This document shows positions 1 to 36,207 of a stretch of DNA of 36,207 nt, one piece after another (within the stretch, counting starts at the first letter, position 1; every line of letters starts with the position of its first letter). Location: the IMG/VR virus record IMGVR_UViG_3300049734_000449, positions 1 to 36,207 of that record; one strand, given 5' to 3'. Below the pieces are notes generated by a model that had not been told where the DNA came from, did no database searches, and was given only the letters and a program-made list of their open reading frames with translations. Both the position numbers and the translations under genes were made by a program. The stretch is from a virus.

Positions 1-127
1 TGGCATCCTCGCTATCATATCCGGTTTTCAACGAACTTTGCATGCTTGCGCGAGTGGCGCCTTGAACGCTATAGCATACCATGCTTTTCTTTCGTCACGA
101 TTCTTGATAACACGTTTCCTTACAGTC
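1..127. repeat. Terminal redundancy, left copy
   Basis: These 127 bases are identical to positions 36081-36207, so the molecule closes into a circle of about 36,080 bp. An overlap of exactly 127 bases is a common assembly k-mer size, so it is more likely an assembly overlap than a physical terminal repeat. Positions 2-94 lie directly beside the last CRISPR repeat and are the candidate CRISPR leader. The minus strand has a -10-like TATGAT at 14-19, with only a weak -35. Confidence 0.95.
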
Positions 128-571
128 AAGTGTGCGTCCGCGAGCGCTCACCGGGTATTCGCCGGCGCCCCGCCGCTCGCGGCTCAAATGCTCAACGATT
201 CGCGCGAGCGCCTCATCGCCCGCCTGCTCGATCATTCGCGCCAGCTCGGCCGCTTGCTCGGCGATGGGATCTTGACCAGGCGAGTCCGGCATGCCTGTCT
301 TATCGTTGGGATAAGTGAGCGAAGCCGGACGGGTTTGGTCAGCGCGTTTCTGCGCCGCCCTCATCCACGCCGGCGCCGTCCGCCTCGAGCGCCAGGCCTT
401 CATCGCGATGAACCGCCGCTCGATGGGCGAGCGTTTCTTATTCGCCTCGCGCGCCGCTTCGGTGCCCGCGCGCTGCCATGCGGCGAATTCTTCGGGCGTC
501 ATTTTCGCCGCGCGCTTGCGTCCGAGCGCGACCGCTGCCGGGTCTTTTGACCTCGGCTTACCATCAGTCAT
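95..571 (-). CDS. Hypothetical protein with KDPAAVALGRKRAAKMTPEE motif
   Basis: A 158-residue basic, helical protein. I chose the ATG at 571 because the protein then begins MTDGKPRSKDPAAVALGRKR, collinear with the 50-residue paralog at 6876-7028. The longer TTG-started frame to 619 is coded by a palindromic element. The N-terminal GRxxAAKMTPEE segment is related to the C-terminus of the GIY-YIG protein at 29038-29529. A 69-bp element (273-341) is read through in frame and inserts the peptide PASLTYPNDKTGMPDSPGQ between two predicted helical regions. Function unknown; the motif may bind nucleic acid. Confidence 0.65.
   Translation of the reverse strand: MTDGKPRSKDPAAVALGRKRAAKMTPEEFAAWQRAGTEAAREANKKRSPIERRFIAMKAWRSRRTAPAWMRAAQKRADQTRPASLTYPNDKTGMPDSPGQDPIAEQAAELARMIEQAGDEALARIVEHLSRERRGAGEYPVSARGRTLDCKETCYQES
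273..341 (-). repeat. 69-bp palindromic element E1 (in-frame copy)
   Basis: Best-preserved copy. Three nested inverted repeats are perfect: TGACCA/TGGTCA at the ends (273-278, 336-341), GTCCGGC/GCCGGAC (284-290, 324-330) and CTTATC/GATAAG (299-304, 310-315) around a 5-base centre. The element is symmetric (26 + 6 + 5 + 6 + 26). Strand is the one on which it encodes PASLTYPNDK. It lies inside the gene at 95-571 and keeps its frame because 69 is a multiple of three. Confidence 0.85.
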
Positions 572-13866: not shown

Positions 13867-13910
13867 CGGAGTGTTGTTTGCGCCAGCAGGCTCGTGAGAA
13901 TGCTGCTCCA

Positions 13911-14345
13911 ATGGTCACTCTTGAATGTCTGTGGTGCGGGGAATCTTTTCAGCGTAAAGAGTCCTATCTCAAGTCCAATGGCGCGCGGGTAAAGTTTTGC
14001 AGCAAGGAATGCAATGGCGCGTACACTGCGCGATACAAGCAAAACAGTGTATCAGCAGCCGAGACGGCATTCTTCGATCGGCTGGAAGCTGCCGGTTTGC
14101 GATTTAATCGGCAGGCGCAATTCAAGAAATTCGTCATCGATGCGATTTGCGTTGAGAAAAACATAGCGATTGAATTTGACGGTGATTACTGGCATTCGCT
14201 GGAACACGTCAAGGCCAAGGACAAGCGGAAATCAGATGCTCTTGAGCGCGCTGGCTACGAACTGATTCGCGTGCCTGAATACGCCTGGGTCGAGCATCCG
14301 GATTCAGCAATTGAGTGGGTGTTGGAGATCGCGAGGACGTTATGA
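13911..14345 (+). CDS. Free-standing homing-type endonuclease (Vsr/EDxHD-like fold)
   Basis: A 144-residue protein. The N-terminal zinc finger reads CLWCGESFQRKESYLKSNG ... FCSKEC. The nuclease core reads ETAFFDRLEAAGLRFNRQAQ, then FVIDAICVEKNIAIEFDGDY and WHS, with Glu, Asp and FDGDYWH placed as in very-short-patch-repair-like (DUF559/EDxHD) nucleases. Its stop overlaps the protease start (ATGA). Its position between conserved head genes is typical of selfish homing genes. The codon choice looks more AT-rich than in the flanking genes. Confidence 0.75.
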   Translation: MVTLECLWCGESFQRKESYLKSNGARVKFCSKECNGAYTARYKQNSVSAAETAFFDRLEAAGLRFNRQAQFKKFVIDAICVEKNIAIEFDGDYWHSLEHVKAKDKRKSDALERAGYELIRVPEYAWVEHPDSAIEWVLEIARTL

Positions 14346-29037: not shown

Positions 29038-29529
29038 CTAACGAGTCGCTGCGGCTTTCCGGGCGATTTCCTTCCTTTGTTCCGCCGTTAAACTTCTGGC
29101 CCGTGCCGGGCCGCCCCTCCGTCCCAGCATCGAGAATACTTCTCTGATCTTGTCATCCGCCGGTAGTATCGTCGGATTTGGCGGTTTGAGTAATTTGGGC
29201 GGCTTCGGCGGCTTCGGCTGCCTCGGTGGCTTGGCCTGCTTTGGCGGCTTGGGTTGTTTTGGCGGTCTCGATTCGATGGGGGCCATAAGACCAATCATCC
29301 CGATGAGATTCCGCAGTTCCGTTGAACTGTGGAACCATTCGCCGATCTTATGTTCCGCCGCGAATCTTTGATGAAGCCATTTTTCCGTACCTCTCGATCC
29401 TGGGAGGCAGCCGAGCAGACGAACCGGCATCAGCGTTCCGAGCTGCGCTGCGCGGTTCACTGGCTTGGTTGAGTAGCCAATTTTGATGAACTGGCTATCT
29501 TCCGTTTCGATGAAGTAGACGTAGCCCAT
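29038..29529 (-). CDS. GIY-YIG (T5orf172-type) nuclease with GRRGG tail
   Basis: A 163-residue protein from the ATG at 29529. The GIY-YIG-like domain reads MGYVYFIETEDSQFIKIGYS, then STKPVNRAAQLGTLMP, EKWLHQRFAAEHKIGEWFHS. A Pro/Lys-rich linker (about 88-120) is made of KQPKPPKQ units. The C-terminus LGRRGGPARARSLTAEQRKE then IARKAA is the motif that occurs alone at 6876. This resembles a homing endonuclease with a modular DNA-binding tail. The frame is open further upstream, but that part overlaps the zinc ribbon gene. Confidence 0.7.
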   Translation of the reverse strand: MGYVYFIETEDSQFIKIGYSTKPVNRAAQLGTLMPVRLLGCLPGSRGTEKWLHQRFAAEHKIGEWFHSSTELRNLIGMIGLMAPIESRPPKQPKPPKQAKPPRQPKPPKPPKLLKPPNPTILPADDKIREVFSMLGRRGGPARARSLTAEQRKEIARKAAATR

Positions 29530-29645
29530 TTTGACGGCGTGTCCCATCTCGTTTGTTTGCAGTTCGGGCACGATTTCGGGCGATCCGGCGTCCGCTTCGT
29601 CCATTCGTGACCGCATCGCAGGCACTTCACGGTATCTGTTTTCAT
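29457..29645 (-). CDS. Zinc-ribbon protein overlapping the nuclease gene
   Basis: A 62-residue frame: VKCLRCGHEWTKRTPDRPKS then CPNCKQTRWDTP, the common CxRCGHxW...CPxCxxxxWDxP ribbon. It overlaps the start of the GIY-YIG gene by 73 bases in another frame. The ribbon is complete before the overlap, so the Ser/Lys-rich end may be neutral. The two probably act together. Confidence 0.6.
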   Translation of the reverse strand: MKTDTVKCLRCGHEWTKRTPDRPKSCPNCKQTRWDTPSKWATSTSSKRKIASSSKLATQPSQ

Positions 29646-29727
29646 CATTGTCATCATCATACTCACTTTTTCCCGTAAGGGGCAACTTTTCGCTTGACAT
29701 CATAGTCATCATCATACTACACTTTTA
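29642..29727 (-). repeat. Duplicated start region of the zinc ribbon gene
   Basis: On the minus strand AAAGTG(T)AGTATGATGATGAC(A/T)ATGATG occurs twice, at 29698-29727 and 29642-29670, about 55 bases apart. Each holds several ATGs in a row. It may be a tandem duplication that created alternative starts. Confidence 0.5.
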
Positions 29728-30859: not shown

Positions 30860-31151
30860 ATCATTCGAAGAGTTCCAGGCATCGCGGGCCGCCCGCCAGG
30901 CCGCCGACGCGAAGCCGAACGGTGTAGTCGCACCCGATCTGACGGCGAAGCTGACCGAATCCGTAAAGCAAGCGAAACGCGGCCGTCCGGCGAAGAAGCC
31001 CGCGCCGCCGAAGGAATCATCGCTCGCCGACGCCATCCAGGCGGCGCTCGACATCGCGATCGCCCGCCGCGGGCGCCCGCTGCGCGAGGAAGCCGTGCGC
31101 GAGCAGACGCTGCTCGAGGTGCTGATTAAAGTCGTAAAGGCGGCGGCATGA
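30846..31151 (+). CDS. Hypothetical basic protein
   Basis: A 101-residue protein (MQPPKSFEEFQASRAARQAA) with a Lys/Arg/Pro-rich middle (KQAKRGRPAKKPAPPKE, an AT-hook-like RGRP) and a helical end. Overlaps both neighbours. May bind DNA. Confidence 0.55.
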   Translation: MQPPKSFEEFQASRAARQAADAKPNGVVAPDLTAKLTESVKQAKRGRPAKKPAPPKESSLADAIQAALDIAIARRGRPLREEAVREQTLLEVLIKVVKAAA

Positions 31152-31960
31152 TTACGCAGATTCAAGATGCGGCGAGCGGGCGGGATTTCCGCCCTTCCGC
31201 CGCTACATCGCCCGGTGAGATCCTGTCGCCGTCACAGGTGAACGCGTATCTGAGCTGCCCGGCTAAATGGTATTACCGATACGGCGCAGGCCTGCCCGAT
31301 CCAGCGTCCGGCGCGCTCGTCCGCGGCAAGGCGGTTCATAGCGTCATCGCCTACGCCATGACGGCGAAGATGGAAGGCTATACGCTCGACCCGGGCGCCG
31401 CGGCCGAGATCATCGAGCCGGCCTGGGACGCCGCGGCTGAGGGCGCCGAGTTTCAGCCGTACGAGGATGTCGAGCAGCTGAAGCGGTCGGGCGCGGCGCT
31501 GGCCGAGAAATGGCTCGCCGAAGCCGGGCCGTTCGTTCAGCCGGCGGCGGTCGAGCTGCCGGTGATGGGCGTGATCGGCGGGGTGCCGGTGCGCGGCATC
31601 GTCGATCTGCTCGACACGTCGGGCCGCGTGATCGATCTCAAGACCGCGACGCGCAAGCCGTCGGCGATTACGCCGGATCAGGCGCTGCAGCTCGCCACGT
31701 ACGCGGCGATTACTCCGGGCGCATCCGGCGAGGCGCGAATCGACTCGCTGATTTCCACCAAAGAACCCCAGTTGATCCAGATCGAGCATACGCCGGGCGC
31801 GGCGGGCCGGCGTCTGGTCGAGCGGATGTATCCGCTGGTCGTCGAGGGGATCGCGGCGGGCGTGTATATGCCGAATAGGGCGTCTGTGCGCTGCAGTAAG
31901 CGGTTTTGCTCCTACTGGTCGGCATGTCAGGACGAGTACGGCGGTCAGATAGCGGAGTAG
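31148..31960 (+). CDS. Cas4/RecB-like Fe-S exonuclease (PD-(D/E)XK)
   Basis: A 270-residue protein. Nuclease motifs: GKAVHS with His64, VDLL with Asp153, IDLKTA with Asp163 and Lys165, and QLATY (Gln181, Tyr185). Four cysteines are placed as in Cas4/AddB Fe-S domains: Cys37 in LSCPAKWYYRY and Cys249, Cys254 and Cys260 in CSKRFCSYWSAC. Such enzymes trim DNA ends. In phages they serve recombination, and Cas4 proteins process CRISPR prespacers. It is the last gene of the 29780-31960 operon and lies 3.7 kb from the CRISPR array. Confidence 0.82.
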   Translation: MITQIQDAASGRDFRPSAATSPGEILSPSQVNAYLSCPAKWYYRYGAGLPDPASGALVRGKAVHSVIAYAMTAKMEGYTLDPGAAAEIIEPAWDAAAEGAEFQPYEDVEQLKRSGAALAEKWLAEAGPFVQPAAVELPVMGVIGGVPVRGIVDLLDTSGRVIDLKTATRKPSAITPDQALQLATYAAITPGASGEARIDSLISTKEPQLIQIEHTPGAAGRRLVERMYPLVVEGIAAGVYMPNRASVRCSKRFCSYWSACQDEYGGQIAE

Positions 31961-34419: not shown

Positions 34420-35709
34420 ATGAAAGCCCGAGCAACCGCTCCACAAACAGCCTACCATAAATCGCGTCCGCGCGGCAGGCAATTACGCAAGTCACAAACT
34501 ATTCATGACCCCGGTGAGCGGGCGGATATTTACCGTCCGAACCTATTGCGCATCGTGTCGAGCAGGCAGGCAAAGCTGCATAAATCCTGGATGGGTGCAG
34601 AGGGATTGGTAATCCCTCTAAAGCACTTTCATTACAGAGCGCTGGAGTTGATTGCCGAAAACGTGGATCGTCTTGTGCCGTGGTTGGACGACATTACGAC
34701 CGCTGCTGAGCGGACGGGCATGTGCCGTCAGATGTGGATCAACGTTATTGCGGATTTCGAATTCTTAAGCGTGGTCCGTGTTGAGCGCCGGAAATCGGCG
34801 CAAGGCAATTTAATCAACGTCTACATCCCGCTGCCGCATCCGTTGTGGGACCAGTTCCGATTGCGTCCTTTTCCACGTAAGCCCAAGTCTACGGGATCAC
34901 ACAACTGTTCAGGTATTTCCCAGAGTAGTGTAGGTGAGTCAGTCATACAGACTCATGAAGAGCAACCGACCGAAAACCGACAAAACCCAAAACCGGAACC
35001 CGAGAAGAGCGAGAAAGAGCCGATTGCTGATTTGACGGGCCGCCCGATTCCCGAGATGGCCGAGATGAAGCCGGTGCACGGGATCGTCCTGCGAATCACC
35101 TCGGTTTCATTCGAACTCGCCGTACTGCAGTGGTTCTGCATGGTCGTGGCAGCCAGAGGATGGCCGGTCGTGGACGTGGTCAGGTGGGTCGGTGCGCATC
35201 ACGACTTGCGAAAAGCGCGGAACATGATCGCGTTGCTTACGCACATCCTCCGCCTCTACGCCCGCGCCTACCCCGCGCCCGCCGCCGCGCCGAACCGCTT
35301 GGAGTCAGTCTCGAAGTATTCGCCCGTTGCGTTTCACGACGGCGATCCGCCGCCGCGGCCACCGCGGCGCGATGATGACGAAATGCCGCCGGCCGAAAAG
35401 CAGCTCACGCCGATACGCGATATGCTCAAGCGGGATGCGAGTGGTTGCGTGCGTCCGCCGGCCGATCCGCCTGCCGATGCGGATGGTCCGGCGCTGCCAG
35501 CTTCGAACCGGCTGTATCAGCTGGTGTCCGACGATGTGTTGATGGCTGGTATTGATCGCGAAGTATTTTTGGCGTGGTTGTGGAAGCAGAAGAACAGGCC
35601 GGATTGGACTCTGTCAAGTGAGGCCGAGAAGCGGCAGTGGATTGAAATTTATCTCAAACGAAAGCGGATGACAGATGAGGCTTCCTTCAATGGGGCCGCG
35701 ATCATGTGA
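34420..35709 (+). CDS. Probable replication initiator (winged-helix, O-like)
   Basis: A 429-residue protein. Residues about 60-150 look like a winged helix (LVIPLKHFHYRALELIAENV, RTGMCRQMWINVIADFEFLS, NLINVYIPLPHPLWDQF). A charged linker and a second helical domain follow. The layout fits phage O/DnaD-like initiators. The last residues (ASFNGAAIM) and the stop are coded by the first CRISPR repeat, so the original 3' end was probably replaced when the array arrived. Confidence 0.55.
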   Translation: MKARATAPQTAYHKSRPRGRQLRKSQTIHDPGERADIYRPNLLRIVSSRQAKLHKSWMGAEGLVIPLKHFHYRALELIAENVDRLVPWLDDITTAAERTGMCRQMWINVIADFEFLSVVRVERRKSAQGNLINVYIPLPHPLWDQFRLRPFPRKPKSTGSHNCSGISQSSVGESVIQTHEEQPTENRQNPKPEPEKSEKEPIADLTGRPIPEMAEMKPVHGIVLRITSVSFELAVLQWFCMVVAARGWPVVDVVRWVGAHHDLRKARNMIALLTHILRLYARAYPAPAAAPNRLESVSKYSPVAFHDGDPPPRPPRRDDDEMPPAEKQLTPIRDMLKRDASGCVRPPADPPADADGPALPASNRLYQLVSDDVLMAGIDREVFLAWLWKQKNRPDWTLSSEAEKRQWIEIYLKRKRMTDEASFNGAAIM

Positions 35710-36081
35710 TCGCGGAAATGGCCGGCGTGTTGTCGTAGTCGATCTGGGCCGCACCTGCTTCAATGGGGCCGCGATCATGTGATCGCGGAAATGCTATTCG
35801 GCAGCTCGCTGGAGCAAAGGCGGTACCGGCTTCAATGGGGCCGCGATCATGTGATCGCGGAAATGCGCGGCGACGTCGGCGGGCTCGAGCGCATCTTGGC
35901 AGCTTCAATGGGGCCGCGATCATGTGATCGCGGAAATTGACGGGCGGCGTTTTCGCCTTGGCCCATCACCCATGCTTCAATGGGGCCGCGATCATGTGAT
36001 CGCGGAAATCGCGTGCGGGTTCTGGTACGTCGCTTACGTCCGGCAGCTTCAATGGGGCCGCGATCATGTGATCGCGGAAAT
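35684..36081 (-). CRISPR. Orphan CRISPR array: six 36-bp repeats, five spacers
   Basis: Repeats at 35684-35719, 35757-35792, 35829-35864, 35902-35937, 35974-36009 and 36046-36081. Spacers are 37, 36, 37, 36 and 36 bases, all different. Each repeat starts GCTTCAATGGGG, has the palindrome CCGCGATCATGTGATCGCGG and ends AAAT; only the first differs (G to C at base 1). The reverse complement ends ATTGAAGC, close to the ATTGAAAC handle of type I and III crRNAs. The altered repeat is at the left (trailer) end. Both point to minus-strand transcription with the leader to the right. No cas genes adjoin it. Confidence 0.95.
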
Positions 36082-36207
36082 GGCATCCTCGCTATCATAT
36101 CCGGTTTTCAACGAACTTTGCATGCTTGCGCGAGTGGCGCCTTGAACGCTATAGCATACCATGCTTTTCTTTCGTCACGATTCTTGATAACACGTTTCCT
36201 TACAGTC
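36081..36207. repeat. Terminal redundancy, right copy
   Basis: Identical to positions 1-127; see the left copy. Genes should be counted once on the circular map. Confidence 0.95.

Follow-up and report, generated by a model that had tools for sequence, protein, structure and literature searches.

A CRISPR mini-array preceded by a type I-G leader was found in the closed genome of a tailed phage that carried no cas genes, and the repeat of this array belonged to a class located beside type I-G genes in bacteria. We consider it probable that this leader-bearing mini-array is worked by the type I-G Cas proteins of the host, probably for inter-phage exclusion. The DNA analysed here, hereafter called the window, was a stretch of 36,207 nt corresponding to an entire virus record.

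The array, composed of six 36-nt repeats and five spacers with a period of 72-73 nt, occupied 35684-36081 of the window. The repeat was read as ATTTCCGCGATCACATGATCGCGGCCCCATTGAAGC on the minus strand, which was assigned as the crRNA strand from the side of the leader and from the type I-G spacer-side end ATTGAAGC. The spacer-side end of the repeat in the type I-G array of Methanosarcina barkeri is also ATTGAAGC (PMC10504553), and the direction of the window array agreed with that of the M. barkeri array. Numbered from the leader, repeats 1 to 6 were located on the minus strand at 36046-36081, 35974-36009, 35902-35937, 35829-35864, 35757-35792 and 35684-35719, respectively. The spacers between them, from leader-proximal spacer 1 to the oldest spacer 5, were located at 36010-36045 (36 nt), 35938-35973 (36 nt), 35865-35901 (37 nt), 35793-35828 (36 nt) and 35720-35756 (37 nt), and all were unique and mutually unrelated. 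Five of the six repeat copies were identical (GCTTCAATGGGGCCGCGATCATGTGATCGCGGAAAT on the plus strand), and the outermost, leader-distal copy starting at 35684 had C for G at position 1, at its outer end. A changed base is common at the old end of a CRISPR array. Since six evenly spaced copies of one 35-mer were present, the array was not attributable to chance. The old end of the array was abutted by an ORF of 429 aa on the plus strand (34420-35709), whose stop codon lay inside repeat 6. This ORF belonged to no known family, and no relatives of it were found in IMG/VR or in 250 genomes.

The leader was located directly upstream of repeat 1. An nhmmer search of the rotated window with a profile built from 34 bacterial leaders, none of which was taken from the window, gave a match at 20-189 on the minus strand (envelope 6-194) with an E-value of 6.7e-13. 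It was the single significant place in the rotated window, the next best having an E-value of 1.5. The repeat-proximal part of the leader corresponded to 36082-36207 (minus strand, the same bases as 2-127), and the leader continued uninterrupted through the closure point of the genome, covering 2-194 (minus strand). The overall identity of the window leader to single bacterial leaders was 32-51%, and it kept the GCGAGCGG, GCTCGC and CTCGC boxes as well as the TTGAAAA element near the repeat. Beyond the repeats, the phage thus carries an array head that is complete, and host Cas1-Cas2 would require this part for spacer addition.

An exact terminal direct repeat of 127 bp (1-127 identical to 36081-36207), absent, like the leader, from an earlier note on this DNA, was detected at the ends of the window. 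An assembler running at k=127 leaves exactly a 127-base overlap on a closed circle. As the ends overlapped by exactly 127 bp, the contig was judged to be circular with the array at an internal position, and most likely represents a circular phage genome of 36,080 bp. This closure also led us to reject the idea that the array lies at the end of a linear fragment. The contig start, and with it the closure, fell exactly on the border between repeat 1 and the leader, where an arbitrary start is unlikely. Because the start of a clean circle is arbitrary, its position at this border suggested that the assembly graph had possibly once branched there. Such a branch may have arisen if, for instance, some phages lacked the array or had a different one, and the start at this border may reflect variation within the phage population.

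The head genes identified in the window were those for terminase, portal, head morphogenesis, maturation protease, major head protein, head-tail adaptor and head closure, and the tail genes were those for major tail protein, tail terminator, tape measure and parts of the tail fibre/baseplate. A recombination exonuclease, an excisionase-like regulator and a repressor were also encoded. This gene content indicated that the genome is that of a long-tailed, siphophage-type bacterial phage, and the head and tail genes together with the contig closure placed the array inside a viral genome, as judged from the assembled sequence. No integrase family was present among the families listed for the window genes, and the portal had no relatives in IMG/VR. 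An HNH endonuclease gene was located amid the head genes (13878-14342), and a T5orf172/MUG113 (GIY-YIG-like) gene at 29041-29715 on the minus strand; both are likely of the homing type.

PADLOC scans of the window ORFs (60 ORFs in one scan and ten, partly the same, in a second) gave no match to Cas1, Cas2, Cas3 or Cascade. The sole Cas-like match, weak and to Cas4/PD-(D/E)XK (E-value 1.5e-8), was shown by the phage exonuclease at 31148-31957, which matched PHROG exonuclease families and is probably a recombination exonuclease. What the genome held of a type I-G CRISPR-Cas system was the array only. The earlier note, made without database searches, had described six near-identical 36-bp repeats with five unique spacers at 35684-36081, a complete head and tail set, and the lack of a Cas effector, cas1 and cas2. 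The present analysis agreed on all of these, the array coordinates being exact, and the view of an orphan mini-array on a compact siphovirus-like genome was strengthened by the closure and by the leader homologous to those of type I-G.

The exact repeat was absent from the GTDB genome contigs searched and from the other IMG/VR contigs. A pattern with the outer parts of the repeat fixed and the inner ten bases free was found in at least 120 stretches of bacterial genomes, which among the matches listed were mostly from Acidobacteriota, Planctomycetota and Verrucomicrobiota. Many of the matches were true arrays, one 8-kb stretch containing as many as 115 copies. The inner stem of the repeat covaried, as positions 18/27 and 19/26 paired in 93-96% of 101 distinct repeats with all four Watson-Crick types occurring, and the window repeat folded as a stable hairpin (z -3.3). 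Arrays of this class were adjoined by a Cas4-Cas1 fusion at three loci (L128, L122 and L012) and by the Cas5/6 fusion Cas56g (csb2, GSU0054) at another (L075), demonstrating the location of the same repeat class beside cas genes of type I-G, formerly I-U, in bacteria. The search for a host array with the same repeat, proposed in the earlier note, yielded the repeat class beside type I-G genes, but no identical repeat in the bacterial genomes searched.

Among the matches listed, the nearest bacterial repeat was that of a Bryobacteraceae MAG (L051) with one mismatch, and the repeats differing from that of the window by one to three mismatches (L051, L048, L057, L128 and L009) were mainly from Acidobacteriota. 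As the closest repeats were mainly acidobacterial and the class was located beside type I-G genes, the host is probably a bacterium with a type I-G system belonging to Acidobacteriota (Terriglobia/Bryobacterales). Relatives of the major head protein in the order of the genome of L057 showed approximately 30% identity and were no closer than those from phages of other bacteria. The phage genes did not therefore name the host, and they neither favour nor oppose an acidobacterial one. Isolated single repeats of this class were also seen in bacterial contigs (L057 781-816 and L034 5297-5332, and also L059, L067, L076 and L096), with no second exact-pattern copy within the stretch analysed. These may be prophage-borne units or array remnants.

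The identity of any spacer to other parts of the window was at most 22/36, which was at chance level and in line with the by-eye impression of the earlier note that no spacer matched the window. Searches of IMG/VR with patterns of spacers 1 and 2 in which every sixth base was left free, and with back-translated peptides of spacers 5 and 1, gave no match, and comparison of the whole array with phage and plasmid records gave chance-level matches only. A comparison of the five concatenated spacers with 399 genomes from the class to which the L057 genome belongs, the true host not being among them, detected nothing above chance, and the best partial matches crossed spacer borders or fell in unrelated genes. 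In the reverse direction, the best match of 1,151 spacers from other fetched arrays to the window was equal to that of the shuffled control. The search of spacers against virus records, carried out with the IMG/VR patterns for spacers 1, 2 and 5 and with the array against phage and plasmid records, thus returned no target. The proposal that host Cas proteins are used against competing viruses was supported in its first half by the repeat, the leader and the lack of cas genes, whereas for the targeting of competitors the searches with the five spacers remained at chance.

A looser repeat pattern detected seven other contigs in IMG/VR, all of which had tailed-phage genes. Nine repeats were present in L004, at least eight diverged repeats with a leader (E-value 1.5e-17) in L007, three to four in L002, two to three in L003, and one each in L005, L006 and L008. 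The repeats of the leader-bearing array in the whole record of L007 (L145, 15050-16400) differed mutually in the inner stem, and one had a wholly different yet pairing stem, CCATGGATATTGATCCATGG. Diverged copies of the array flank were found as spacers in both L007 (30/38 bases) and L002 (27/36 bases), while 1,500 shuffles gave a maximum of 25. In the record of L002 (L141, 14495-14530 and 14621-14656), the spacer resembled the start of the phage's own array-adjacent gene (27/36). Similarity without identity between a spacer and the sequence of its carrier is expected when the spacer derives from, and targets, a close relative of that phage. L002 and L007, both different phages from that of the window, thus indirectly supported the targeting of other phages by arrays of this type. 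The single repeats of the type I-G class were located at 194-227 of L005, 10760-10793 of L006 and 794-827 of L008. These three tailed-phage contigs are unrelated, and none has another repeat near the first; that of L008 lay just upstream of an ORF start. These single repeats are candidate RNA anti-CRISPRs against type I-G.

Since the phage had an array and a leader but no Cas proteins, it probably borrows the type I-G machinery of its host, and the repeat, the leader and the absent cas genes together argued strongly for such use of host Cas proteins. The element would be a captured CRISPR mini-array, with a type I-G leader, six repeats and five spacers, carried by a tailed phage of a type I-G host. 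During infection or lysogeny, a minus-strand precursor RNA would be transcribed from the leader and processed by the host Cas5/6 fusion (Cas56g). The resulting crRNAs would be loaded into the host I-G Cascade, which together with host Cas3 would cut DNA matching the spacers, most likely that of competing phages. The intact leader could also allow host Cas4/1-Cas2 to extend the phage copy of the array with new spacers. For transcription, host Cas use, the kind of target and spacer acquisition, these steps were inferred from the type I-G literature and the precedent of the archaeal viruses SPV1 and SPV2. A tentative extension, on which we would place rather little confidence, is that host Cas4/1-Cas2 keeps updating the I-G array of the phage as an adaptive memory against rival phages without Cas proteins of its own, and that tailed phages of I-G hosts repeatedly took up I-G repeats both as arrays and as single-repeat inhibitors.

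The leader and array might instead have been acquired from a host by recombination and be of no use to the phage. Such a passenger would agree with the lack of targets in the spacer searches, with the outermost repeat already changing, and with the position of the array against a gene having its stop codon in a repeat, as after insertion. However, the repeats are identical except for one of the six, the leader boxes have been kept, idle DNA is rarely kept by small phage genomes, and similar arrays recur among other tailed phages, so that a useless array appeared unlikely. It was considered very unlikely that the array transcript mainly ties up host I-G Cas proteins, like the Racrs from solitary repeats. 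Although the repeat forms a stable hairpin, single I-G-type repeats exist on three other phage contigs (L005, L006 and L008), and Racrs have been proven for other subtypes (PMC10651486), a decoy would not need a leader or five unique, regularly sized spacers, yet both are present.

In some huge phages, spacers directed against the chromosome of the host or its mobile elements have been described (PMC7162821). That the window spacers have such targets instead of phages was thought highly improbable; the absence of above-chance matches in the 399 genomes of the likely host class speaks weakly against it, since the true host is not one of them. Joining of a host array to the phage contig during assembly seemed scarcely credible. 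The contig starts exactly at the repeat/leader border, which is non-random and where the assembly graph may have branched, but the exact 127-bp end overlap is characteristic of a closed circle, the leader crosses the closure unbroken, and a phage gene reaches the array with the composition unchanged. Both the closure and the continuity of the leader across the junction appeared to weaken the objection of a chimera raised in the earlier note.

Operation of the mini-array by host type I-G Cas proteins, the preferred reading, has precedents in known viruses. The archaeal portogloboviruses SPV1 and SPV2 carry leader-bearing mini-CRISPR arrays (PMC6858448), and the phage resembles them in having a virus-borne array with a probably host-like leader and repeats and no cas genes. 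SPV1/SPV2 are archaeal viruses with one to two spacers per array and proven reciprocal targets, whereas the window is from a bacterial tailed phage with five spacers of type I-G. Huge phages possess compact arrays with a median of six repeats, without interference and adaptation genes, and may rely on host Cas (PMC7162821; review PMC11656645). They share with the window array a bacterial phage as carrier, probably host-like repeats and probable host Cas use, but have genomes larger than 200 kb, in contrast to a closed genome of 36 kb with a full leader recognised by homology. The solitary repeat units known as RNA anti-CRISPRs (PMC10651486) are phage-encoded copies of a host CRISPR repeat, as the window repeats probably are; a Racr, however, has one repeat and no spacer and inhibits host CRISPR, and the window has a multi-spacer array of six repeats and five spacers with a leader. 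The bacterial type I-G arrays of Acidobacteriota and Planctomycetota (such as L128, L122 and L075) correspond to it in repeat class, spacer length and leader boxes, while they are chromosomal, often contain dozens of repeats and in some cases adjoin cas genes, unlike the phage-borne array of six repeats.

The window array adds to a known kind, comprising the leader arrays of archaeal viruses and the arrays of huge phages, and is distinguished by its small closed genome, full leader and type I-G repeat. A shallow search of the literature found no published description of type I-G phage arrays. Virus-borne arrays for which a role in conflicts between viruses has been shown come from archaea, and the best-known bacterial ones are those of huge phages. 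At 36 kb, closed and with a complete leader, the siphophage is compact enough for direct tests of host Cas use in trans and of spacer addition to a phage genome by the adaptation machinery of the host. With the other seven phage contigs, arrays and solitary repeats of the same repeat class can be compared within a single CRISPR subtype.
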